55,247 nucleotides of DNA from an archaeon (GTDB taxonomy: Archaea > Nanobdellota > Nanobdellia > Pacearchaeales > UBA284): assembly GCA_030612665.1 (NCBI GenBank), contig JAUWNL010000003.1, positions 1 to 55,247 on the forward strand, given 5' to 3'. The notes under the pieces are model-generated. The model was given only the letters and a program-made list of their open reading frames with translations. It was not told the DNA's origin and did not search any database. This document shows, in pieces, positions 29,408-55,109 of the stretch (within the stretch, counting starts at the first letter, position 1; each line of letters begins with the position of its first letter). The translations under genes were made by a program, and so were the position numbers.

Positions 29408-29860
29408 TTAAAAACATTCCTGTTTATCTGCATCAAGAAATAATTGATTCATTCTCCGGCCGAAATTCCAATCTAACATTGCTAAATACATCTTATCTTC
29501 GGGGATATATTTTTCATATGGTAATCCAGACATCTTAGCAATTTCTTCCGATACAAAAAGTCCTGAAGTCAATTGAACTGGTTCTAAGAAACGGTCTATA
29601 AAACTTATTTTTCCATTAATTGGATGAATGAATACTTCTCCTCCAATTTTATTAATATACTCCCCCAAATGGTCATTATTAGAAAGAAGATGATATTTTA
29701 ATGGAATCCCAATTTGGAATAAACGTGGAGCATCTTTCCATTCTTTTTTAGGAAAAACAGTTATTGGACAATAGCATAAACTATCTCTTTCAATGATTTC
29801 TCTAAAAAGTGATTCAATTCTCGAAAAATCTTTTCTTAAATATATCTCAGATTCTTTCAT
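29408..29860 (-). CDS. Hypothetical protein, second gene of a pair
   Basis: A 150-residue soluble protein with no signal sequence, beginning MKESEIYLRKDFSRIESLFR. It has a CYCP motif, a mixed alpha/beta content and a C-terminal WNFGRRMNQLFLDAD. Its start overlaps the stop of the upstream gene by four bases (ATGA), so the two are translated together. No family is recognised. The 22-base gap to the MEMO gene suggests a shared transcript. Confidence 0.55.
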   Translation of the reverse strand: MKESEIYLRKDFSRIESLFREIIERDSLCYCPITVFPKKEWKDAPRLFQIGIPLKYHLLSNNDHLGEYINKIGGEVFIHPINGKISFIDRFLEPVQLTSGLFVSEEIAKMSGLPYEKYIPEDKMYLAMLDWNFGRRMNQLFLDADKQECF

Positions 29861-30228
29861 TTTTTTCTCAATCTTTTTTCAACTTTAGTAACATAATTTT
29901 CTGATCCATTAAGCCCAGTATCTTCTGTATCTGGAAAATAACCTTCTCTTTTGAATTCAGCTTCTCTGAAATCAGGAAAATCTTCTAATAGTTTATAATA
30001 AATCTTATACATTTTGTCTTCAATTCTAGCTTTTTCTAGTGTTTCTTGATCAGTTTTTCCTAGACTAGCCACATGAATAATATATGCCATTAAATTACCA
30101 ACAATATGATGATAATGTGTGAATTTATCTGAAACTCCAAATCTTTTTGGAAATTCATTTATCATCTCACGCCAGTGCAGCTCTTTCTGTTTAAATTCCT
30201 CAATAATCTTTTCTAATCCAGTTACCAT
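29857..30228 (-). CDS. Hypothetical protein, first gene of a pair
   Basis: A 123-residue helical protein, starting MVTGLEKIIEEFKQKELHWR. It contains a His cluster (FTHYHHIVGNLMAYIIHVASL) within helices that could bind metal, and ends in a basic tail. It is coupled to the next gene by an ATGA overlap. The fold may be an all-helical His-containing bundle, but I cannot name the family. The gene begins about 30 bases from the 3' relic of a second cca gene. Confidence 0.55.
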   Translation of the reverse strand: MVTGLEKIIEEFKQKELHWREMINEFPKRFGVSDKFTHYHHIVGNLMAYIIHVASLGKTDQETLEKARIEDKMYKIYYKLLEDFPDFREAEFKREGYFPDTEDTGLNGSENYVTKVEKRLRKK

Positions 30229-30258: not shown

Positions 30259-30315
30259 TTATTGTTTTACTTCAATCTTCTTAATTCCCATCTCCTTCAA
30301 CTGGGCTTTCTTAAA
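30259..30315 (-). pseudogene. Relic of the 3' end of a second cca gene
   Basis: Downstream of the ATPase gene, in another frame, the minus strand encodes FKKAQLKEMGIKKIEVKQ and a stop. The intact cca gene at 31725 ends IPKSQLKEMGIKEIKEVK. About 12 of 17 aligned residues are identical, while many codons differ, so this is an old, diverged copy, not a recent duplication. It overlaps the ATPase stop codon. A matching 5' relic lies at 33937-33981, in the right order and orientation for one interrupted gene. Confidence 0.72.
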
Positions 30316-31522
30316 GCAATAACCATTTCCAAACTGGTCGCACAATCAACTTTTTGCCCCCAACCAAGAACTCATCTTCTTGATTAAAAGTCAAAATTAA
30401 ACCCTCACTTAAACTAAACCTCTTTAAAGCATTTACTAATCCTTCTATTTCCCTGTCTTTATTTTCTTCAGTTAAATCAAAACAAACTTGAATTGCCCCA
30501 GTAATTTTATCTTTTTCTTTGACTACAAAATCACATTCATTTTTTTCCTGAAAATAAAAAATATTTTTGAATCTTCTTCTCAAGCCTAAGAAAACAGCAT
30601 TTTCTAGCATCTTTCCTTTATCCTTTGAGAAAGAAGCAGAATTTGCATAAGAGAAGCCATTATCAATTGAATAGACTTTTTTTGGATTTACTTGTTGCTG
30701 CTTGTATGAATAACTAAATCTTGGGATTGTGAATATTAAATAAGAATTCTCGAAATGAGATATATAATCAATAACACTCTGAACTGACTTGATTTTAAAC
30801 ATCTTCTTTATAGAATTATAAGAGAATTCTTTTCCTACATTGCTAATGAGATAAACTGCAATTTTGTTAAGTACATCTGTATTTTTTATGCCAAACCTGA
30901 CAGCAACATCTTTCATAACTACATCTGAAAGCAGCTCATGATTAATAGCAGGATCATCTTTTTTCAGATATTCTGGAAAACCTCCTTTGTTCAAATATTC
31001 CTCGAAAGATTCTGCTGACGGCCTCTTCTTTTTCATATCCAAAAATTCCCTATATGAAAATGGAAATAATTCTAACTGTAGGTGCCTGCCAGTCAGTTTT
31101 GTTCCGAGCTCAGTGCTTAACAGAGAGGCATTAGAACCTGTTATCAAGACTTTTTCCTTTTTGTCAATCAAATATCTTATGAATTTCTCCCATTTTTTAA
31201 TGTTCTGGATTTCATCAAAAAAATATATTCCTCCTTCACCATATAACTCTTTCATTATCTGCTCGGCTTTGTTAAAATCAGAAAGCTCAAAATCCCCCAA
31301 TCTGGGGTCTTCAAGATTGAGATAGCAGCCTCTTTTCTGTTTTTTTAAAATCTGGTGGAGAAAAGTGCTTTTTCCACATCTCCTTATTCCTGTAATCAAA
31401 AGAGCAAAGGAGTCCCTAATTTTAATGTCTTTTATTTTCTCTCTCAAAATGCCAAGATCTAATCTGTTTAAAGACTCTCTTTGCGCAAGTATTACTTCTT
31501 TAAGCATGTCACGTGTTATCAT
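30311..31522 (-). CDS. AAA-family ATPase with DUF4143 domain
   Basis: A 403-residue protein. An N-terminal AAA_14 domain has Walker A GIRRCGKST (45-53) and Walker B GIYFFDEIQNI, with sensor-like ITGSNASLL. The C-terminal DUF4143 part ends in the usual NECDFVVKE and VRPVWKWLL. The biochemical role is unknown; the family is patchy in prokaryotes and often mobile. A TATA-like AGATTTATATATC on the minus strand sits about 20-25 bases before the start, so it has its own leaderless promoter. Its stop lies exactly against the 3' relic of a second cca gene, which marks it as part of an inserted block. Confidence 0.9.
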   Translation of the reverse strand: MITRDMLKEVILAQRESLNRLDLGILREKIKDIKIRDSFALLITGIRRCGKSTFLHQILKKQKRGCYLNLEDPRLGDFELSDFNKAEQIMKELYGEGGIYFFDEIQNIKKWEKFIRYLIDKKEKVLITGSNASLLSTELGTKLTGRHLQLELFPFSYREFLDMKKKRPSAESFEEYLNKGGFPEYLKKDDPAINHELLSDVVMKDVAVRFGIKNTDVLNKIAVYLISNVGKEFSYNSIKKMFKIKSVQSVIDYISHFENSYLIFTIPRFSYSYKQQQVNPKKVYSIDNGFSYANSASFSKDKGKMLENAVFLGLRRRFKNIFYFQEKNECDFVVKEKDKITGAIQVCFDLTEENKDREIEGLVNALKRFSLSEGLILTFNQEDEFLVGGKKLIVRPVWKWLLL

Positions 31523-31724
31523 AGGATTATAGTGTTCATAAGATATATAAATCTTTCTATTAGCAGTAGAAACTATTTTCTATTTAGAATAGAAACTTTA
31601 ATCTCCAGAGAAAATTTAGAGCTGAAGTGATTGAAGTGACAGAGTTGTAAGAGAAGTTCGCGCCATTTTCCAACAGCTTATAAGAAAGTCAATTAAATCA
31701 ATCTTCTTCTTTCTCTCACCTATC

Positions 31725-32984
31725 TTACTTCACTTCTTTTATCTCCTTTATCCCCATTTCTTTGAGCTGACTTTTGGGAATTCTCCTAATGAGTTTTTTC
31801 ATATCAAAAATCTTTCTCTGTGCTTTAGCATATAATCTCTTGTTCTTTACAAAGGTTTTTTTCCATGTTTTTTTGAATTTCTTAATATGTTTTTCAGGGA
31901 TATTCAATGGAGGCCCAGCAATAACATAATTTTTTTCTGGTTCTTTGTAAATAAAATAAAATTTTGCTTCTAGATTTTTCTCAGAAAATCCAAAAATACT
32001 TCTTATAACTTTAAAACCATTTTTTTTAAGAATAAATTGCAGATATTCATAGAATTTCCTTGTTTTGCTACCAGCAACATCAACTTTCTTTTTTAATGTA
32101 GTAACTTGAATTGTCACAAATTTTGCTTTGTTTCTCTTTGTTTCTTTCTTTAATGCTTCAATGTTTATTTCATGTTTAAAAAAATATGATTCTGAAGATC
32201 TTTTCAAGTATTTTTTGGCGACTTTAATAAATTTTTCAAGTGTCTTAAAACTAAGAGCAGCTGCAGCATTCCTATCTTTCTGAACAGGATCAATAAGAAT
32301 GATTGGTGAATGAAGTTTTGCTTTGTTTAATGAATGCATTACTTGTGCTTTGCTTGAATAATATTTCTTAGGATCAATAACTATTTTTTCTTTTCCATTC
32401 CATTTTGTCATTGCTCTTAGGAACTTCATGAATGAGCCATAATAACAAACAAGAACTTCAAGAACATAACCACTAAATCCGCGGATGTAGGATTCAGCTC
32501 CATAACAATCAGCACTATAGCTAAATGCCTTGGCAAGCCTAATTTCATCAGCAAGTTTCTTATTCTTTTTTATCTTACTTAGAATATAAGTGACATGAAG
32601 AGGCGAGACATCAGTAATATTTACTGCTTCTTCTGCTTTCTTGATTTTAAGTATTGGAACTAATTCAATTGTAATTTTATTGATTTTGACTTGAAAATAA
32701 TCCCTAGAACCATGAAGTCTTATTGCCTTGATTTTATGTTTTTTTAAAATCTTGCTTAGAAAATCAGCAAGTTTATGGCTCTGCTTAGCCATCTTATAAG
32801 GAAACATGACAAAAACATCCACATCATAACCTTTATCTCTCTTGACAAGAGTTTTCTTGGCATAACTTCCTCCAATAAAAAGTTCTATTCCTCTGCCTTT
32901 AATCTTCATAACTCTGTTTAGAGCTTCTTTTATCTCATCAAGATCTTTTTTCTCAGGCCTTATTTTTTCAAATACTTTTTTCAT
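31725..32984 (-). CDS. cca: CCA-adding enzyme, class I (archaeal)
   Basis: A 419-residue tRNA nucleotidyltransferase that builds or repairs the CCA 3' end. Catalytic motif GGSYAKKTLVKRDKGYDVDV (Gly39-Ser40, Asp54, Asp56) and the third acid in TIELVPIL are intact, and YIRGFSGYVLEVLV fits the archaeal enzyme. No tRNA gene in this window encodes CCA, so it should be essential. It starts 2 bases after the HepT stop, making MntA-HepT-cca one operon. The genome segment also holds relics of the two ends of a second cca on either side of the block. Confidence 0.95.
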   Translation of the reverse strand: MKKVFEKIRPEKKDLDEIKEALNRVMKIKGRGIELFIGGSYAKKTLVKRDKGYDVDVFVMFPYKMAKQSHKLADFLSKILKKHKIKAIRLHGSRDYFQVKINKITIELVPILKIKKAEEAVNITDVSPLHVTYILSKIKKNKKLADEIRLAKAFSYSADCYGAESYIRGFSGYVLEVLVCYYGSFMKFLRAMTKWNGKEKIVIDPKKYYSSKAQVMHSLNKAKLHSPIILIDPVQKDRNAAAALSFKTLEKFIKVAKKYLKRSSESYFFKHEINIEALKKETKRNKAKFVTIQVTTLKKKVDVAGSKTRKFYEYLQFILKKNGFKVIRSIFGFSEKNLEAKFYFIYKEPEKNYVIAGPPLNIPEKHIKKFKKTWKKTFVKNKRLYAKAQRKIFDMKKLIRRIPKSQLKEMGIKEIKEVK

Positions 32985-32986
32985 AC

Positions 32987-33400
32987 TTATTTCAACCCCT
33001 TTTTAATTATATAAATTAATTCCTTTATATCTTTTTCTAATTCTTCTGTAATTGAATGGAAAACAATTTCATCATCTATACTGCCATACTCATGAGCAAT
33101 TATATTTCTCATACTCTTTGCGTCTTTAAGTTTTTCTGTAAGTTCAGACGAAATTATTTTATTTTGTAAAAGAATATCAAATGCATGTAAATCACTTTCT
33201 GGAAGAGATAACCTTCTTTCTTTAATAAATAAAAATGTTAAATCAATTACTGCTTCTATAATTATTTCAGCATATCTCTCACATGCAGCTTTTGCCTTTA
33301 AATCGTGAATATATTCTTTTAGATTAATTGGTCTTATTTCATTAAGTTCAGATAAATATTTTTCTATATCTTTAATTTTATCTTTAATTCTTTCGTTCAT
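32987..33400 (-). CDS. hepT: HepT-like HEPN toxin RNase
   Basis: A 137-residue all-helical HEPN protein from start MNERIKDKIKDIEKYL. The catalytic motif RNIIAHEY (Arg98, His103, Tyr105) is an exact Rx4HxY, the HepT signature. In studied pairs the Tyr is modified by AMP from MntA, which silences RNase activity. A long-start version (33424) would overlap mntA more. The stop is 2 bases before cca. HEPN/MNT pairs are common mobile toxin-antitoxin units. The target RNA is inferred from family reports, not visible here. Confidence 0.88.
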   Translation of the reverse strand: MNERIKDKIKDIEKYLSELNEIRPINLKEYIHDLKAKAACERYAEIIIEAVIDLTFLFIKERRLSLPESDLHAFDILLQNKIISSELTEKLKDAKSMRNIIAHEYGSIDDEIVFHSITEELEKDIKELIYIIKKGLK

Positions 33401-33890
33401 ATAAAACTTTCCCCTTATTATCAATTTCTTTTTTTATTTTATCTGGAAGAATATTATAAACCTGTATTTCTATTTTTTTGTTTACTTTTCTTAAAATATC
33501 TAATCTAAATTGCATAGCTTCTTTTTTTGTAATTTGAAAAAATTCTACTGCAAGGTCTATATCAGAAGATAAAGTTAACTGGCGTTCTACTATTGACCCA
33601 AACAAAATAATTCTTTTTATTCTTTTGAAATATTTGCTTTCTAGAATAACTTCTTTTGCTTCGGAAATCATCTCTTTGATTATTGCTCCATGTTTGAGTT
33701 GAAAATCCTTAACAAATGGTGCAAGTGCATTAATTGCTTCAAACTTTTTTCTTATATCTCGAGAAAGCCTTGTTTTTTCTGAAGCTTTCAAACTCACTCC
33801 AAGCAATTGCTTCTCAATAATCTTTAACTCTCTCTTTCCAAATATTTTCCTTAGATTTTCGTCCTTTTTAACAACACTTAATAAATTCAT
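33384..33890 (-). CDS. mntA: MntA-like nucleotidyltransferase antitoxin with N-terminal extension
   Basis: A 168-residue protein. Residues 90-168 are a minimal nucleotidyltransferase: LFGSIVERQLTLSSDIDLAV is an exact GSx10DxD with Ser99, Asp110 and Asp112. In the known system MntA transfers AMP to HepT and so switches it off. The first 85 residues, mostly helical and charged (SLKASEKTRLSRDIRKKFEA), are absent from short MntA proteins and resemble a small DNA-binding or helical domain. It is the first gene of the operon. The 5' cca relic and a TATA-like TTTAAATATA lie upstream. Confidence 0.85.
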   Translation of the reverse strand: MNLLSVVKKDENLRKIFGKRELKIIEKQLLGVSLKASEKTRLSRDIRKKFEAINALAPFVKDFQLKHGAIIKEMISEAKEVILESKYFKRIKRIILFGSIVERQLTLSSDIDLAVEFFQITKKEAMQFRLDILRKVNKKIEIQVYNILPDKIKKEIDNKGKVLYERKN

Positions 33891-33934
33891 TTTATTATCT
33901 CCATTGTGATAATAGTTATCAGCATAGCGATATA

Positions 33935-33946
33935 TTTAAATCTTTC
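33935..33946 (-). promoter_or_regulatory. TATA box of the mntA-hepT-cca operon
   Basis: On the minus strand TTTAAATATATC lies about 45 bases before the mntA ATG and overlaps the end of the cca 5' relic. The relic therefore seems to have supplied part of the promoter. Confidence 0.45.
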
Positions 33947-33981
33947 TTTTCTGGCCTTATTTTTTCTAATACTTTTTTCAT
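33937..33981 (-). pseudogene. Relic of the 5' end of a second cca gene
   Basis: The minus strand encodes MKKVLEKIRPEKKDL from an ATG at 33981, against MKKVFEKIRPEKKDL in the intact cca. Fourteen of fifteen residues agree, but several codons differ silently, so the copy diverged under selection before it broke. After codon 15 the reading becomes unrelated and stops. The reading frame also extends upstream to another ATG (MRKETE). With the 3' relic at 30259-30315 it frames the block 30316-33936. Confidence 0.78.
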
Positions 33982-34111
33982 TTCAGTTTCTTTTCTCATA
34001 TAACCTCAAAAGAATTGAAATTTAAAAAAGCTTGGTTATTCTCTTAATTATACTAACGAGTATATTGCCAAAAAATATTTAAGATAAGAATTTCTTTTAT
34101 TTTATATTAAA

Positions 34112-41602: not shown

Positions 41603-43189
41603 ATGAAAAAGTGGGGGATCTTTGGAATTTTGATATTAGTATTCCTTACAATTATTTTTATTAGCGGCTGTATTGAAGAAGATATTGAGAATATTCCTGA
41701 ATCTGAATTGCAAGAAATATGTGCAGGAGAATCCTGGCCTTCTGATGGTTGTAATGTTATAGAGGATTTACAAGGGAGACAATTATGTGAAAAATGTAAG
41801 GAGTTGTTAGGTTATGTAAAAACCGATGGTGAAGGCCCAGAAGGAGGAGTAGCATCTAATTCTCAATTTAGTCTTATTGAAGGTGACAGTGAAAGTTGGA
41901 TGGTAGTAGAATCAATAATTGGAGTATATGTACCAAGCCCAACATGGTTTAGATTTGATTATCTAAATGAAGGGCCATCTTTAAGATGCAAACAATTTGC
42001 AAACTTAGAAAATGCTCAAAATAATGTTAAGCCATTAGGTGAAGCAGTTGTAGATTATGTTGGAACAACAACTGAACCTTATTTATTTGAATTTGGTGAA
42101 CGAGGTACAACTTTTGTTAATTTAGTTGTTGGTGTTTTAAACTTTCCTCCAAATAATTATGCTATTTATCAGGGTGAAGCAGAAGAAGTACAAGAAGATG
42201 GTTATCCTATACCAAAAGAAGGCCTTGAAGCAGAGGCGATTTTTAGTGCTGATAATATAGTTCAGGTTACTTCTTTTACAGGAGAAGGATTATCTGCTGA
42301 TCCGGACTTTAGTCCAGATGGAAGACAGATAGCTTTTAGTAGACTTACTAAAACAGGTGAGGATAAAAATGGAAATATGTATATTATAAATATCGATGGA
42401 ACAGGGCTCACTAAAATCGGACATGAATATCTTTATGATCCTTCTTGGAGTCCTATTGATAATAGAATATTATGTTATGGAGGAGAAGATAGTGATTTAT
42501 ATATAATTGATTTAAATGTAGATAAAACAAATGCAGTTCCTTTTGGCATGAAAAACTCACATTTAGCAATATGGAGTCCTGATGCAACAAAGATTGCTTA
42601 TGCAGTTTATGATAATAGTAATGCACCTGTCCCATCAAGTGATCCAACTTGTGATGGAACAGGAGTTTTAGGTTCAATTTGGATTATGAATTCTGATGGA
42701 ACTGGAAAAACTCAATTAACAACTGAAGAAGAGGGTTATTGCAGTGGTCCATCTTTTAGTCCAGATGGCTCAAAAATTGTTTATAACAAAGGATTCATTC
42801 ATGGCAGTACACCTTTTTTAATTCACAGACCAGCACATGAAATTTGGGTAATGAACAGTGACGGCTCAAACAAGCATGCAATCTATAAACCAGAAGCTAG
42901 CATACATTATATGTATCAAAATGCTTGGAGTAAAAATAATGAAATTATGTTTCCAAGAATTTGGTGGAAAAGAAGACCTCAAATATGGAGTATAAACTCT
43001 GATGGAACTAATCCTCAATGTTTGATTAAAGTTCCAGAACTTTCTCAACCAGAAGATGCTGCTCATGAATTTATGTATGGCGATGTTGCCTGGGATAAAA
43101 CTGGAACTAAAATAGTATCAACACAAGAAATAAATCCAGGACCAGATATTTATGAGGATTGCAATATTGTTATATTTTCTTTAGAATGA
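41603..43189 (+). CDS. TolB-like beta-propeller lipoprotein
   Basis: A 528-residue protein from ATG 41603. The signal MKKWGIFGILILVFLTIIFISGC ends in a good lipobox (ISGC), so the protein is likely lipid-anchored by Lgt. After a unique region of about 200 residues (cysteines near the start) come PD40/TolB-like blades: DPDFSPDGRQIAFSR, DPSWSPIDNRIL, IWSPDATKIAYAV, SFSPDGSKIVYNK and INIDGTG/MNSDGTG. Such propellers bind partners in the envelope. It is translated together with its paralogue downstream through an ATGA overlap. Confidence 0.82.
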   Translation: MKKWGIFGILILVFLTIIFISGCIEEDIENIPESELQEICAGESWPSDGCNVIEDLQGRQLCEKCKELLGYVKTDGEGPEGGVASNSQFSLIEGDSESWMVVESIIGVYVPSPTWFRFDYLNEGPSLRCKQFANLENAQNNVKPLGEAVVDYVGTTTEPYLFEFGERGTTFVNLVVGVLNFPPNNYAIYQGEAEEVQEDGYPIPKEGLEAEAIFSADNIVQVTSFTGEGLSADPDFSPDGRQIAFSRLTKTGEDKNGNMYIINIDGTGLTKIGHEYLYDPSWSPIDNRILCYGGEDSDLYIIDLNVDKTNAVPFGMKNSHLAIWSPDATKIAYAVYDNSNAPVPSSDPTCDGTGVLGSIWIMNSDGTGKTQLTTEEEGYCSGPSFSPDGSKIVYNKGFIHGSTPFLIHRPAHEIWVMNSDGSNKHAIYKPEASIHYMYQNAWSKNNEIMFPRIWWKRRPQIWSINSDGTNPQCLIKVPELSQPEDAAHEFMYGDVAWDKTGTKIVSTQEINPGPDIYEDCNIVIFSLE

Positions 43190-44163
43190 AATCAAAATAT
43201 ATTGTGATTGGAATAATAATTTTAGTGATAATAGTTGGGGTTATTTTTATTATTAATCCTTTTAAACAAGAAGCAGAAACAGGAGATGGGGGAAATGGAC
43301 AAACATCTGAATCTGTTGAACCTCTTGAAGTAACCCAGCTCACTTCTTTTGAAAATGCTATTGACCCAGATTGGAGCCCTGATGGAAGCCAAATTGTTTT
43401 TTGTCGTATGCAGGGGCAGACTCAAACTCTATACTTAATCAATGCTGATGGAACTGGACTCACAGAAATTGGCCTGGGGTTTGACCCATCCTGGAGTCCT
43501 GTAGAAGATAACATAGCATACGAATTGAACAATCAGATTTACACTATGAACTCTGATGGGAAGGACAATTCTCCATTGACAACTGAGCCAAGCAATTCCC
43601 AGCCTGCTTGGAATCCAGATGGAACTAAAATTGCATATACTCATTATGAATCTGGAAAACCATCAATTTGGATAATGAATTCTAATGGAACAGAAAAAAC
43701 TCAACTTACTACAGAAGAGGATGAGCCATGTTCCTGGCAGTCTTTTAGTTATGATGGCTCAAAAATCGTTTATATTAAAGGACAAGTATGGTATCCTAGT
43801 TCTGAAAGATTTCCAAAAGTGCCAAATGAGATTTGGATTATGAATAATGATGGCTCAAACAAACATCAGATATATGCTCCAAGTGATACTTATCAGTGGA
43901 TATTCCAACGAGCATGGAATAAAAATGAGGAGATTATATTTGGAACATCTCCCCTCCAAGAAATAAAAATTCCAGAAATTGGGATTATAAATAGTGATGG
44001 TAGTAATCTTAGATTTATACTTAATCCTCCAATGGATTCTTTAGGTATGCCTGAATGTATTTATGGTGATACTGTTTGGGATAATTTTGGGACTAAAATA
44101 GCACTCACTAAAAAAATGATAGATGGACCAATCAACATCGCTACTGTTTCTTGGGAAGAATAA
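43186..44163 (+). CDS. TolB-like beta-propeller protein, membrane-anchored
   Basis: A 325-residue protein starting MKSKYIVIGIIILVIIVGVI. A single N-terminal helix anchors it; no cysteine follows, so it is not lipid-modified. Six blades share wording with the upstream gene, including DPDWSPDGSQIVFCR, DPSWSPVEDNIAY, AWNPDGTKIAYT and IWIMNSNGTEKTQLT. The two are clearly tandem duplicates. Start codon overlaps the preceding stop. The partner or cargo is unknown. Confidence 0.82.
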   Translation: MKSKYIVIGIIILVIIVGVIFIINPFKQEAETGDGGNGQTSESVEPLEVTQLTSFENAIDPDWSPDGSQIVFCRMQGQTQTLYLINADGTGLTEIGLGFDPSWSPVEDNIAYELNNQIYTMNSDGKDNSPLTTEPSNSQPAWNPDGTKIAYTHYESGKPSIWIMNSNGTEKTQLTTEEDEPCSWQSFSYDGSKIVYIKGQVWYPSSERFPKVPNEIWIMNNDGSNKHQIYAPSDTYQWIFQRAWNKNEEIIFGTSPLQEIKIPEIGIINSDGSNLRFILNPPMDSLGMPECIYGDTVWDNFGTKIALTKKMIDGPINIATVSWEE

Positions 44164-50703: not shown

Positions 50704-52500
50704 ATGGTGATTGATATATCTACTATAGCTAGTTTTTTTTCAGGAATTCTTTCAGCTCTAGGTACAGCTTTTTCTTCATTTTCTTCTGGAGTTTCATCTC
50801 TACAAATTTTACTTTCCCAGCTTCCTGAGAGCCAGGCTGTATTGATTAGTATAGGATTAATTATTATTGTTGCCGCTTTCTTTGCCTTGGTTATGAAATC
50901 TCTTAGACAAGAAATGATTCCCGCATATATTATTGCCGGCCTGATAATCGGCCCTCTTGTTCTTGGTTTGGTGAAAAATACAATTTTGATTTCAGTTTTT
51001 GCTGAGATTGGAATAGCTTTCTTGTTGTTTGTTGCTGGACTTGAAATTAGTATTTCAAAATTAAAGGAAACTTCTCTTGGTTCTGTACTTGCTGGATGTT
51101 TTCAAATTGCAATAATTGGCGCAGCAACTTTCTTTATTTCTCAGGCTCTAGGCTTTTCTTTGATTACAGGGATTTATCTTGCCTTAATTTTATCATTTAG
51201 CTCAACTATCCTTGTTATCAAATTACTTGCAGATAAATATGAAGTTAATACCTTACATGGCAGAATAATCATTTCAATTCTTTTGATACAAGATATTGTT
51301 GCAATCTTTGCTCTTGCTTTACTTTCAAAGGAATTTTCTTCATACTTTATTTTTATTGCTCTAACAAAACTGGTTTTAATGTTATCATTTGCTTTTATTT
51401 TAAACAAAACTGTTCTTAAGCCTTTATTCAAATTTTCCTCAAAATCCCCAGAATTATTATTTATTGTTGCTATAGCTTTCTTATTTTTATTTGCTGCTTT
51501 CTCATACTTATTAGGCTTTTCAATTATTATTGGTTCTTTTATTGCAGGTCTTGCTCTAGCTAATTTACATTATAAAACAGAGATAGAATCAAAAATCAGA
51601 CCTCTTCGTGATTTCTTTGCAATCATATTTTTCGTGTCACTTGGAATGTTGCTTACTTCATTTAATATTATACCTATTATTATTCCATTCCTCATTTTCC
51701 TTGCTCTTGTTTTAATTGCCAAACCATTGATTATTGCATTTTTTGTAAGAATCGTAGGCTACAAAAGAAGAACAAGTGCTTTGACAGGATTTGGTCTTGC
51801 TCAAATATCCGAATTTTCATTGATTCTTGCATTCCAAGGTCTTCTTTTAGGAATGTTAACACAAGAAATATTTACAATTGTTGTCCTTATTGCTATAGTC
51901 AGTATGGGTTTAACTCCTTATTTTATCAAAGGAAGCATGACACTCTATTCAAAGACAATCGGGTCATTATGGCTCTTAGACAAACTGCCAACTTTCAGAG
52001 AGAAAACAAGATACAAGGGAGAAAAAAAGAAAACTGTCCTATTGATTGGTTGCCACAGGATGGGTTCTATATTTTTGAAAAAACTTAAGAAATACCATCA
52101 CAAAATCCTTGCTGTAGATTTTAATCCTGAAATTATTAAATCTCTTGAAAATAAGAATATCTCGGCGATTTATGGAGACATCTCAAATACAGAAATTTTA
52201 AATCACTTACCACTTAAAAGACTTAGGGTTGTTATTTCAACTATTCCAAGAAAAGAAGATAATCTTCTTATAATAGGTTATTTCAAAAAATTTTGGCCAA
52301 GAATTTTTATTGTAGTGACTGCACAGAATATTGATGGGGCTCTTGAAATGTACAAAGAAAAAGCTGACTATGTTATGTTGCCACTGATTACGACCGCTGA
52401 AATGAGCGTAAATATGATTAAGAAATTAAATAAATGGCAATTTAGGAAATTAAAAAAAGATCATATAAAATATCTAAGAGAACTGAAGAAAGAGATCTAA
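50704..52500 (+). CDS. Kef-type cation/proton antiporter with TrkA-N domain
   Basis: A 598-residue CPA2-family protein. After a serine-rich N-terminal segment come 11-13 membrane helices with YIIAGLIIGPLVLG, FAEIGIAFLLFVAGLEIS and FGLAQISEFSLIL, all typical of KefB/KefC-like exchangers. From about residue 440 a soluble Rossmann domain (VLLIGCHRMGSIFLKKLKK...ILAVDFNPEII) binds NAD(H) or other nucleotide and gates transport; the GxGxxG is altered to GCHRMG. GAGGTG just before the start is the ribosome site. It probably moves K+ or Na+ against H+. Confidence 0.9.
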   Translation: MVIDISTIASFFSGILSALGTAFSSFSSGVSSLQILLSQLPESQAVLISIGLIIIVAAFFALVMKSLRQEMIPAYIIAGLIIGPLVLGLVKNTILISVFAEIGIAFLLFVAGLEISISKLKETSLGSVLAGCFQIAIIGAATFFISQALGFSLITGIYLALILSFSSTILVIKLLADKYEVNTLHGRIIISILLIQDIVAIFALALLSKEFSSYFIFIALTKLVLMLSFAFILNKTVLKPLFKFSSKSPELLFIVAIAFLFLFAAFSYLLGFSIIIGSFIAGLALANLHYKTEIESKIRPLRDFFAIIFFVSLGMLLTSFNIIPIIIPFLIFLALVLIAKPLIIAFFVRIVGYKRRTSALTGFGLAQISEFSLILAFQGLLLGMLTQEIFTIVVLIAIVSMGLTPYFIKGSMTLYSKTIGSLWLLDKLPTFREKTRYKGEKKKTVLLIGCHRMGSIFLKKLKKYHHKILAVDFNPEIIKSLENKNISAIYGDISNTEILNHLPLKRLRVVISTIPRKEDNLLIIGYFKKFWPRIFIVVTAQNIDGALEMYKEKADYVMLPLITTAEMSVNMIKKLNKWQFRKLKKDHIKYLRELKKEI

Positions 52501-52565
52501 AGAAAGAGATTTAATTGATAATCTAGCTGATTATCTATCTGATTATTATTTATTAGTTGATGATA

Positions 52566-54056
52566 TTAGTTGATGACAATTGCCTTTGAATCTTTAAAGA
52601 TTTTTTCTGCGTAATTCAATTTTCTTTTATTTTCTGAATAAATTGTAGCAATTATATCATTCTTTTTTACAAAATCTCCGACTTGCTTATGAAGATAAAT
52701 GCCTGCTCTTTTGTCTGCAGGACATCCAGCGACTCTTGCAACAAAATTTATTTTTTTATTATTCATTTCTTCTATCTTGCCATGTTCTTCTGCAATAATT
52801 ATTTTTTTGAAATTAGCTAACCTTAATTTTTCATTTAAATCTCCAAAGTTTCCGTGCTGTGCCTTTATAATCTCCTTGAATTTTTCAAGAGCTTGCCCTG
52901 AATTAAGGATATATGAAGCAAGCCTTTTACCATGACCTTTTTTTGTTTTTCCAGCAAGTTCAAAGATTAGCCCAGCAAGAACAATTGCTTTAGCCTCGAG
53001 ATCTAAAGGTCTTGATTTTTCTCTTACAAGAACTGCAAGGATATCTCTCATTTCAAGAACAGGGCCTATTCCTTTTCCTATTGGTTGATTTCCATCTGTT
53101 AATGCTATCATGATTTTTAGTCCAAGAAGGGTTGATATTTTATGGAATTTTTTTGCAAGTTTTTTTGCTTGTCCAAAATTTACTTTTGCTCCTTTTCCAA
53201 AAGGAATATCAAGTAAAAAATGAGTTGCACCAACTGAAACTTTTTTTGCAAGAATCGAAGCAATGAGTTGTGCCTGAGGGTCAATACCCATTATCCTCTC
53301 TACTTGTATTATTTTATCATCTGTAGGTGCCAAGCCAAGAGAACCACCCCAGACGAGACATGCATTATTCTTATTTACTATTTTTTTAATCTCTTCAAGT
53401 GAAAATTCTACATTGCATAAAGTTTCAATAACATCTGCAGTTCCAGCAGCACTTGTTATAGCTCTCGATGATGTTTTGGGCATCACGAGTCCTGTGGCAG
53501 CACAAATCGCAATAACAATCGGAGTAGTCCTATTTCCTGCTATTCCTCCAATACTATGTTTGTCTATAATCATCTTTTTATTTAAATCAAGAATTTTTCC
53601 AATCTTGACCATCGCATTGGTTAGTGCAATTGTCTCATTATCATTCATTCCATAGACATACATTCCAGAAATAAAATAAGCAATTTCAGTTTCAGTTAGA
53701 GAATTTTTATATATATCCTTCATTATAGAAAAAATTTCAGTATAACTGAGTTTTTTTCCTTGCAGCTTTTTCAAAATAAAATTAGTACTTAAAGGTTTTA
53801 ATGCTGGTTCAATATCTACTAAAGAATCTTCTCTTAATCTGAGTTTCTTGAAAATTTCATAAGAAACAACAATTTCATCTTCTTTAAGAATGCCTGTTGC
53901 AATATCAACAATTGAAATTATTTCTTGATGATCTTTTTTCTTTCTTATAGCTACTCTTTCTCCAGAATGAACATCTAGTTTTTGAGAAACTTTTTGATGA
54001 ATAATTGCTACAGGACGACCTGCCAAAAATTTTAAAGATTTTACTTTTAGTAACAT
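52566..54056 (-). CDS. deoA: AMP phosphorylase
   Basis: A 496-residue enzyme of the thymidine phosphorylase family that splits AMP (and CMP, UMP) with phosphate to ribose-1,5-bisphosphate and base. Family marks are KHSIGGIAGNRTTPIVIAIC, MPKTSSRAITSAAGTADVIE and WGGSLGLAPTDDK, and the archaeal N-terminal domain of about 85 residues that separates it from bacterial thymidine phosphorylase. It feeds the AMP salvage path with R15P isomerase and type III RuBisCO, neither in the window. A GAGGTAAAAGAGGGAG stretch upstream could serve as ribosome site. Confidence 0.93.
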   Translation of the reverse strand: MLLKVKSLKFLAGRPVAIIHQKVSQKLDVHSGERVAIRKKKDHQEIISIVDIATGILKEDEIVVSYEIFKKLRLREDSLVDIEPALKPLSTNFILKKLQGKKLSYTEIFSIMKDIYKNSLTETEIAYFISGMYVYGMNDNETIALTNAMVKIGKILDLNKKMIIDKHSIGGIAGNRTTPIVIAICAATGLVMPKTSSRAITSAAGTADVIETLCNVEFSLEEIKKIVNKNNACLVWGGSLGLAPTDDKIIQVERIMGIDPQAQLIASILAKKVSVGATHFLLDIPFGKGAKVNFGQAKKLAKKFHKISTLLGLKIMIALTDGNQPIGKGIGPVLEMRDILAVLVREKSRPLDLEAKAIVLAGLIFELAGKTKKGHGKRLASYILNSGQALEKFKEIIKAQHGNFGDLNEKLRLANFKKIIIAEEHGKIEEMNNKKINFVARVAGCPADKRAGIYLHKQVGDFVKKNDIIATIYSENKRKLNYAEKIFKDSKAIVIN

Positions 54057-54101
54057 AACAATAATCTCCCTCTTTTACCTCTTTTTTAATTTTTCAAAAT
54101 T

Positions 54102-55109
54102 CTATTTTCTTTTTTTATAAATTTGTATAAATATTAAAATATATTCTATAATAATAGGGCCTACAACTAATCCAACTGGTCCAATCAATGCAAGTCCTCC
54201 CAGCATGCCGACGAGGGCTATTGCAGGATTTATTTTTCCTTTTTTTCCTACAATATGTGGCCTTATAACATCATCAATTAATCCAACAATGATTAATCCA
54301 TAAACCATCAATAAGATACCATTTACAACATCTCCTGATGCAATCATCATCAATCCAACAGGAATCCAAACAAGCCATGCACCAACAAAAGGCAAGATTG
54401 AAAGGAATACAGCAAGTACAGTGAAGAATAAAGGAGATGGAGCACCAAATAAATAAAAGGAGATTCCTGCAGTAATACCTTGGATAATCCCTATGATAAT
54501 TTGTCCGAAGATTGTTGCATTTGCAATGTCTGCAGATCTTTTTAAGAATCTGTCTTTTATCTTTTTTTCAAAAGGAAATAAACTATAAAGATTTTTGATA
54601 ATTTTTTTACCATCTCTCAAAAAGTAGAAAGTCACAAAAAAAGTAACAAAGATTTGTAAGAATAATTTTGGAGCATCAGTAATCACAGTTCCAGCACTAT
54701 TCATGAAACTATTAATTGCTTCTGTTGCTGTTTGTTGGATTGAAATTGTTAATTGCCTGCTTAATTCCGGAGCATCTATAAATATTCTAGATAGAAGATT
54801 ATTTATTATATTAAATATATCAATTTTTTGAATTGAAAGATAAAGATTAAAAGCTTCTTTTATTGCGATTTGTGCTATAAACCATAACATGACTGCCACA
54901 GCTGCAATAAAAACAAACGTTATGATCCCTGCACTTAAATTAGGTTTTTTTATTAGCTTGACTAATCTTTTATGAATTGGGTGTAACATGTATGCGAAAA
55001 CTGCAGCAAATAAAATTGCCCCTATAAAAGGTTTGATCAGAAAAAAGGTTAATACAATTAAAGCGAGAAATATAGTTATTGCTAAAATTTTCTTCACATC
55101 TTTTTCCAT
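54102..55109 (-). CDS. AI-2E family (PerM/UPF0118) membrane protein
   Basis: A 335-residue membrane protein with about eight helices. The pattern FLIKPFIGAILFAAVFAYML, FFVTFYFLRDGKKIIKNLYS and VGAWLVWIPVGLMM, then GLIDDVIRPHIVGKKGKINP, is the family signature. Members include exporters of AI-2 and a proposed Na+/H+ exchanger; the archaeal substrate is not known. It lies 45 bases upstream of the AMP phosphorylase on the same strand, probably one transcript. Confidence 0.88.
   Translation of the reverse strand: MEKDVKKILAITIFLALIVLTFFLIKPFIGAILFAAVFAYMLHPIHKRLVKLIKKPNLSAGIITFVFIAAVAVMLWFIAQIAIKEAFNLYLSIQKIDIFNIINNLLSRIFIDAPELSRQLTISIQQTATEAINSFMNSAGTVITDAPKLFLQIFVTFFVTFYFLRDGKKIIKNLYSLFPFEKKIKDRFLKRSADIANATIFGQIIIGIIQGITAGISFYLFGAPSPLFFTVLAVFLSILPFVGAWLVWIPVGLMMIASGDVVNGILLMVYGLIIVGLIDDVIRPHIVGKKGKINPAIALVGMLGGLALIGPVGLVVGPIIIEYILIFIQIYKKRK

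Follow-up and report, generated by a model that had tools for sequence, protein, structure and literature searches.

Mobile ORFs (mORFs) of fungal mitochondria bring foreign carboxy-terminal ends into the genes in which they insert, as described for Allomyces macrogynus atp6 and for Glomus atp6, atp9, cox2 and nad3, and the two copies of the Glomus atp6 end share 63.5% identity at the DNA level and 91% at the protein level (PMC3630166). These elements are the closest known analogue of the archaeal locus described here. In both, a lone mobile gene lies at the 3′ end of a host gene, a foreign end is in frame and the native end is found downstream; the host end is duplicated at many of the loci that we surveyed, and the outer copy is the native one at the EF-1beta gene. 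However, the fungal elements encode LAGLIDADG or GIY-YIG homing endonucleases and reside in organelles, whereas the cassettes considered here encode AAA_14-DUF4143 ATPases or toxin-antitoxin (TA) pairs, lie in archaeal chromosomes in either orientation, occupy 5′ ends too and form arrays. No homing endonuclease family was found in these cassettes. Integrase-driven islands, of which e14 in icd is one, also restore the 3′ ends of their target genes. Further examples are SGI1 in trmE and the dusA islands (PMC8409611), as well as Tn5253 in rbgA (PMC8571831). The likeness lies in an element-borne end that keeps the gene whole, a displaced copy at the far border and the possibility of tandem arrays, but the present cassettes measure only 0.9-1.4 kb, are without an integrase and are found at many different host genes; the stretches that repeated ends enclose in the window, L175 and L182 contain ATPase or TA genes only and no integrase. 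Integron cassettes are also small, carry one function each and are arrayed with a recurring recombination sequence. The arrays reported below share this layout, but what separates their members is the end of a neighbouring host gene instead of an attC hairpin, and the array locus L175 showed no IntI.

The window, by which we mean the whole stretch of 55,247 nucleotides that was analysed, is the entire contig C4 of genome G000 (assembly of 667 kb, 83.6% complete). It carries the only cca (tRNA nucleotidyltransferase) gene of that genome, an open frame of 419 aa on the minus strand at 31725-32984, 2 nt after hepT. The archaeal CCA-adding enzyme model TIGR03671 matches residues 2-402 with 269.7 bits (curated cut-off 281), and Pfam tRNA_NucTransf2 and CAA_C match above their cut-offs. 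Two short cca ends noticed in a preliminary description of this DNA, which had been made from the letters alone, proved to be real. The displaced 5′ end comprises 15 codons at 33937-33981 on the minus strand and reads MKKVLEKIRPEKKDL, while the displaced 3′ end, at 30259-30315 on the same strand, reads FKKAQLKEMGIKKIEVKQ followed by a stop codon. In a six-frame scan of the window, in which scores no better than random would have spoken against the relics, the 5′ relic scored 70 (shuffled maximum 28 +/- 2.8 on average) and the 3′ relic 48 (24 +/- 3.0), each being the second-best site for its end after the cca gene itself; a chance origin of these matches is thereby ruled out. Their translations, as well as their proper order and orientation around the block, are as claimed, and the borders are indeed sharp, with the stop codon of the ATPase gene falling within the 3′ relic and the 5′ relic directly adjoining the MntA promoter region.

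When we compared the relics with the intact gene at the DNA level, we found 90% identity over 42 nt at the 5′ end and about 63% at the 3′ end, where the best nucleotide E value was 0.17. The 3′ pair is therefore invisible to a DNA-repeat search alone and detectable only as protein, and we read the 3′ relic as coding on the strength of QLKEMGIK, a signature by which the cca C-termini of this family are recognized. The silent codon differences reported earlier between the two versions of cca were borne out: the 5′ copies differ by 4 synonymous and 2 nonsynonymous changes (pS 0.55, pN 0.05), and the 3′ copies, over 14 codons, by 7.5 synonymous and 7.5 nonsynonymous changes, with pS saturated and pN at 0.21. 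Upstream of the 5′ relic the frame continues to about 33999, giving MRKETE-MKKVLEKIRP, a longer N-terminus as in relatives; the intact cca is without it because hepT stops 2 nt before the cca ATG. A de Bruijn misjoin at the relics is unlikely, the longest exact word common to relic and gene being about 14 nt.

The intact cca clusters with the cca genes of four members of its own family (G001, G002, G005 and G009) with a support of 0.975, and thus looks native to that family; the foreign source proposed for it in the preliminary description has no support in this tree. A cca scan of the genome collection returned four distant Nanoarchaeota-type loci only, and no relatives of the cca or of the ATPase were found in the viral contigs searched. 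The uninterrupted gene that had been expected at this position in relatives lies elsewhere: in family members, cca follows homologues of the genes at 54102-55109 and 52566-54056 and faces the homologue of 50704-52500. In the window the genes from 50704 to 55109 remain together and cca is absent between them, and a search of the ancestral site (52501-52565, between 50704-52500 and 52566-54056) found no recognisable cca relic. This site has closed up, cca having moved or been lost there in the lineage of the window. The gene is now found between Memo and nfo, in a region that is itself rearranged; since this is not the ancestral site, the relics are not simply the marks of an overwritten native locus. 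In the other family members checked, nfo is preceded by DNA ligase, a pair that is split here (window 33982-34111; ligase at G000:C19:5291-7054). Between Memo and the 3′ relic (29408-30228) there are two small genes of unknown family; for one of them, of 123 aa, only 4 of 132 relatives have homologues, and these are weak. Elsewhere in the window, a diverged 470-nt tandem repeat (62%) lies in coding sequence at 42674-43144 and 43663-44130.

Upstream of cca on the minus strand lies a TA pair. The MntA-like adenylyltransferase antitoxin (33384-33890) has an N-terminal extension and an intact GSX10DXD motif; it matches Pfam Polbeta above the cut-off (E 4.9e-14) and NCBIfam MntA_antitoxin with 42 bits, against a cut-off of 60. 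The HepT HEPN RNase toxin (32987-33412) has an intact RX4HXY motif (RNIIAHEY) and, with 99 bits against a cut-off of 60 for NCBIfam HepT_toxin, qualifies as a type VII HepT. The pair thus resembles type VII HEPN-MNT systems in that both proteins carry the catalytic motifs, and differs from them in its position, 2 nt upstream of cca. HEPN toxins have been linked to tRNA and mRNA cleavage (PMC11586414); a cut by HepT at the 3′ ends of tRNAs, with repair by cca, is no more than a lead. Judged by DNA similarity to other copies (76% to genome G017), the cassette spans 33002-33946 on the minus strand and extends to the 5′ relic. Its DNA-level relatives are spread over many genomes and never lie within 5 kb of a cca, and MntA-HepT is therefore mobile on its own. 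A second MntA-HepT copy in G000 (G000:C20:2911-3800) has a HepT that is 69% identical and contains an in-frame TGA.

Downstream of cca, the minus strand encodes an AAA_14-DUF4143 ATPase at 30311-31522 (Pfam AAA_14 124 bits, DUF4143 76 bits; PADLOC PDC-S01, E 6e-111). The E, ExD and QxC positions of its DUF4143 domain are conserved; a profile search against the PDB gave no match, and a single-sequence fold was set aside for its mean pLDDT of 40. To our knowledge, AAA_14-DUF4143 ATPases, although a widespread family, have been listed only as phage-defence candidates, and in the open-access literature we found no account of their mobility or of gene-end insertion. Similarity to other copies (71-75% in DNA) bounds the cassette at 30317-31602 on the minus strand, including an upstream operator-like element. 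Indeed, the paired palindromes TTTCTATT...AATAGAAA precede the ATPase start (31540-31602) and are found likewise upstream of other ATPases, so that they are likely an operator retained with the cassette. The closest homologues of the ATPase, 71-79% identical in protein, belong to other families whose cca is near 45% identical, and the ATPase must therefore have been acquired separately; it lies beside cca in none of the other genomes searched. The ATPase cassette, too, is therefore mobile on its own.

We then compared the 900 nt upstream with the 900 nt downstream of each ATPase locus for direct repeats at E<1e-10. Such repeats were found at 13 of the 71 ATPase loci of the order and at 13 of 54 in a second, phylum-wide set in which some ATPases are only 22-32% identical, that is, at 26 of 125 loci when both sets are pooled, versus none of 343 ordinary genes (171 from G005 and 172 from other loci); swapped flanks gave 1 in 284. 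The difference between the ATPase loci and the controls is significant (Fisher 3e-11). The window locus stands outside the 26, the DNA of its 3′ copies being too diverged. Five of the 26 are doubtful, namely L156 and L178, which stop at the repeat and may reflect assembly artefacts, L224, with paralogous-looking genes, and L210 and L211, with a distant copy, but the contrast with the controls survives their removal. About 80% of the ATPase loci have no detectable repeat; these may be decayed old insertions or may have been entered by other routes.

The repeats are coding ends of 28 to over 160 nt. The host gene was readable at 23 of 38 repeat loci (with cca entered by hand), the duplicated part being the 3′ end in 17 and the 5′ end in 3, and host genes include EF-1beta (L182), a heavy-metal P-type ATPase (L160), a TrmB regulator (L155) and an Lhr helicase (L175). 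No tRNA gene was found as a duplicated target at the repeats, a single tRNA-Ser occurring elsewhere in L209. A DNA transposon was rejected as the agent given this range of lengths, the coding nature of the ends and the lack of common boundary ends by eye. The pooled pN/pS between copies was 0.36, and most copy pairs therefore diverged as working sequence; silent and replacement changes numbered 4 and 0 in the helicase, 19 and 10 in L177, and 4 and 2 at the cca 5′ end. In G000 itself, three DUF4143 ATPases stand in tandem (G000:C16:29378-33364), one of them lying between copies of a 31-nt repeat, which falls at the 3′ end of an open frame of 790 aa.

Repeats were also found at three of 45 MntA-HepT modules at E<1e-10: in the window, in L272, where a 78-nt 5′ gene end is duplicated as in cca, and in L268, where the 3′ end is. 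Since most MntA-HepT copies are without repeats, the 5′ event at cca leans on the window and L272. At L175 (G071:C28:12200-21500), one Lhr-type helicase end occurs four times between positions 1372 and 6990, separated in turn by an ATPase, an AbiE-like (AbiEii-like) TA pair and an ATPase, an organization that amounts to a cassette array punctuated by the end of a host gene. In a comparison with G053, the sister genome of G071, the gene copy of the helicase is native-like almost as far as the stop, beyond which it is the outermost copy that is G053-like, although the signal is noisier than at EF-1beta and the order of the copies agrees with the prediction only in part.

The clearest view of the insertion comes from L182, where an ATPase cassette lies at the EF-1beta gene of G071. 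In the sister genome G053, EF-1beta is without the ATPase and adjoins a homologue of the gene that lies downstream of the relic in G071, so that an empty site is preserved. Within the last 48 nt of EF-1beta the gene and relic copies differ at four sites; G053 agrees with the gene copy at the one upstream site (1/1) and with the relic at all the downstream ones (3/3), a polarity test that covers four sites in one gene. The foreign letters on the G071 gene end are all silent. Native and foreign letters thus change places across a breakpoint in this one case, a pattern that matches what would be predicted from a single crossover between the resident end and a cassette-borne end.

We hypothesize, with a probability of roughly 0.7, that a native cca acquired two cassettes independently, its 5′ end recombining with MntA-HepT and its 3′ end with the ATPase. 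Each cassette would arrive joined to its own version of the target gene end, and one crossover inside that end would integrate it, leaving the gene whole but with an end that is swapped and silently different. The resident end would come to lie beyond the cassette as a relic, and the two relics would then be the displaced ends of cca. The comparisons above establish the relics, show that the two kinds of cassette move separately and show that gene ends are repeatedly duplicated around each kind in other genomes, and from them we infer that the cca ends arose as at EF-1beta, by the same single-crossover step. Candidates for the joining activity are the recombination machinery of the host, a recombinase supplied in trans and the ATPase.

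In the preliminary description, one block of MntA-HepT, a complete cca and the ATPase had instead replaced the middle of a native cca, had left both of its ends and had provided a substitute for it. The relics do bracket the whole block in the correct order and orientation, both ends diverged as coding sequence and a single event would suffice. However, what stands of that account is that the segments are displaced ends of a cca that diverged as coding sequence and that a working gene remained after insertion, and not that one block with its own cca destroyed the native one. No MntA-HepT-cca-ATPase block was found in any other genome searched, where both cassettes occur separately and away from cca; the intact cca is vertical within its family; each cassette alone yields gene-end duplications elsewhere; and the two relics diverged very unequally (90% versus about 63%). 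We therefore consider the one-block origin unlikely. Exact repeats of 53 nt in L246 and 42 nt in L152 would fit a plain duplication of the target, either a long target-site or a tandem one, in which the host end is copied at insertion and the outer copy drifts as junk, but many pairs differ mainly by silent changes, which is unexpected for a drifting copy, the repeat length is variable, and at the far end of EF-1beta it is the outer copy that is native and the gene copy that is not. Such a duplication is thus a highly improbable source of the cca relics. Scarcely credible, in our view, is that they are leftovers of the rearrangement that relocated cca rather than of cassette insertion: even though cca, Memo, ligase-nfo and their neighbours are all rearranged with respect to relatives, this leaves unexplained why the duplications coincide precisely with the borders of the cassettes and why the same pattern surrounds the same cassettes elsewhere.

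If two cassettes did recombine into the ends of a native cca, the gene is likely co-transcribed behind the TA genes, and loss of that cassette would therefore cost the start of an essential gene. As a tentative proposal, DUF4143 ATPases and small TA pairs of Nanoarchaeota-type genomes may make up a cassette system that lacks an integrase and is directed at the ends of ordinary and often essential genes, in which recoded ends would make insertion harmless but loss not, and in which arrays would be punctuated by host ends. It is conceivable, though doubtful, that this system is nature's equivalent of a gene drive with a recoded rescue, for which the ATPase perhaps provides the power. The loci give the DUF4143 ATPases a testable behaviour, gene-end insertion with replacement of the end. 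Such a behaviour would make clear how small defence and toxin genes come to reside harmlessly beside essential genes, why gene 3′ ends can be mosaic in Nanoarchaeota-type genomes, and how a TA pair that serves as the promoter of an essential gene can thereby protect itself from loss.
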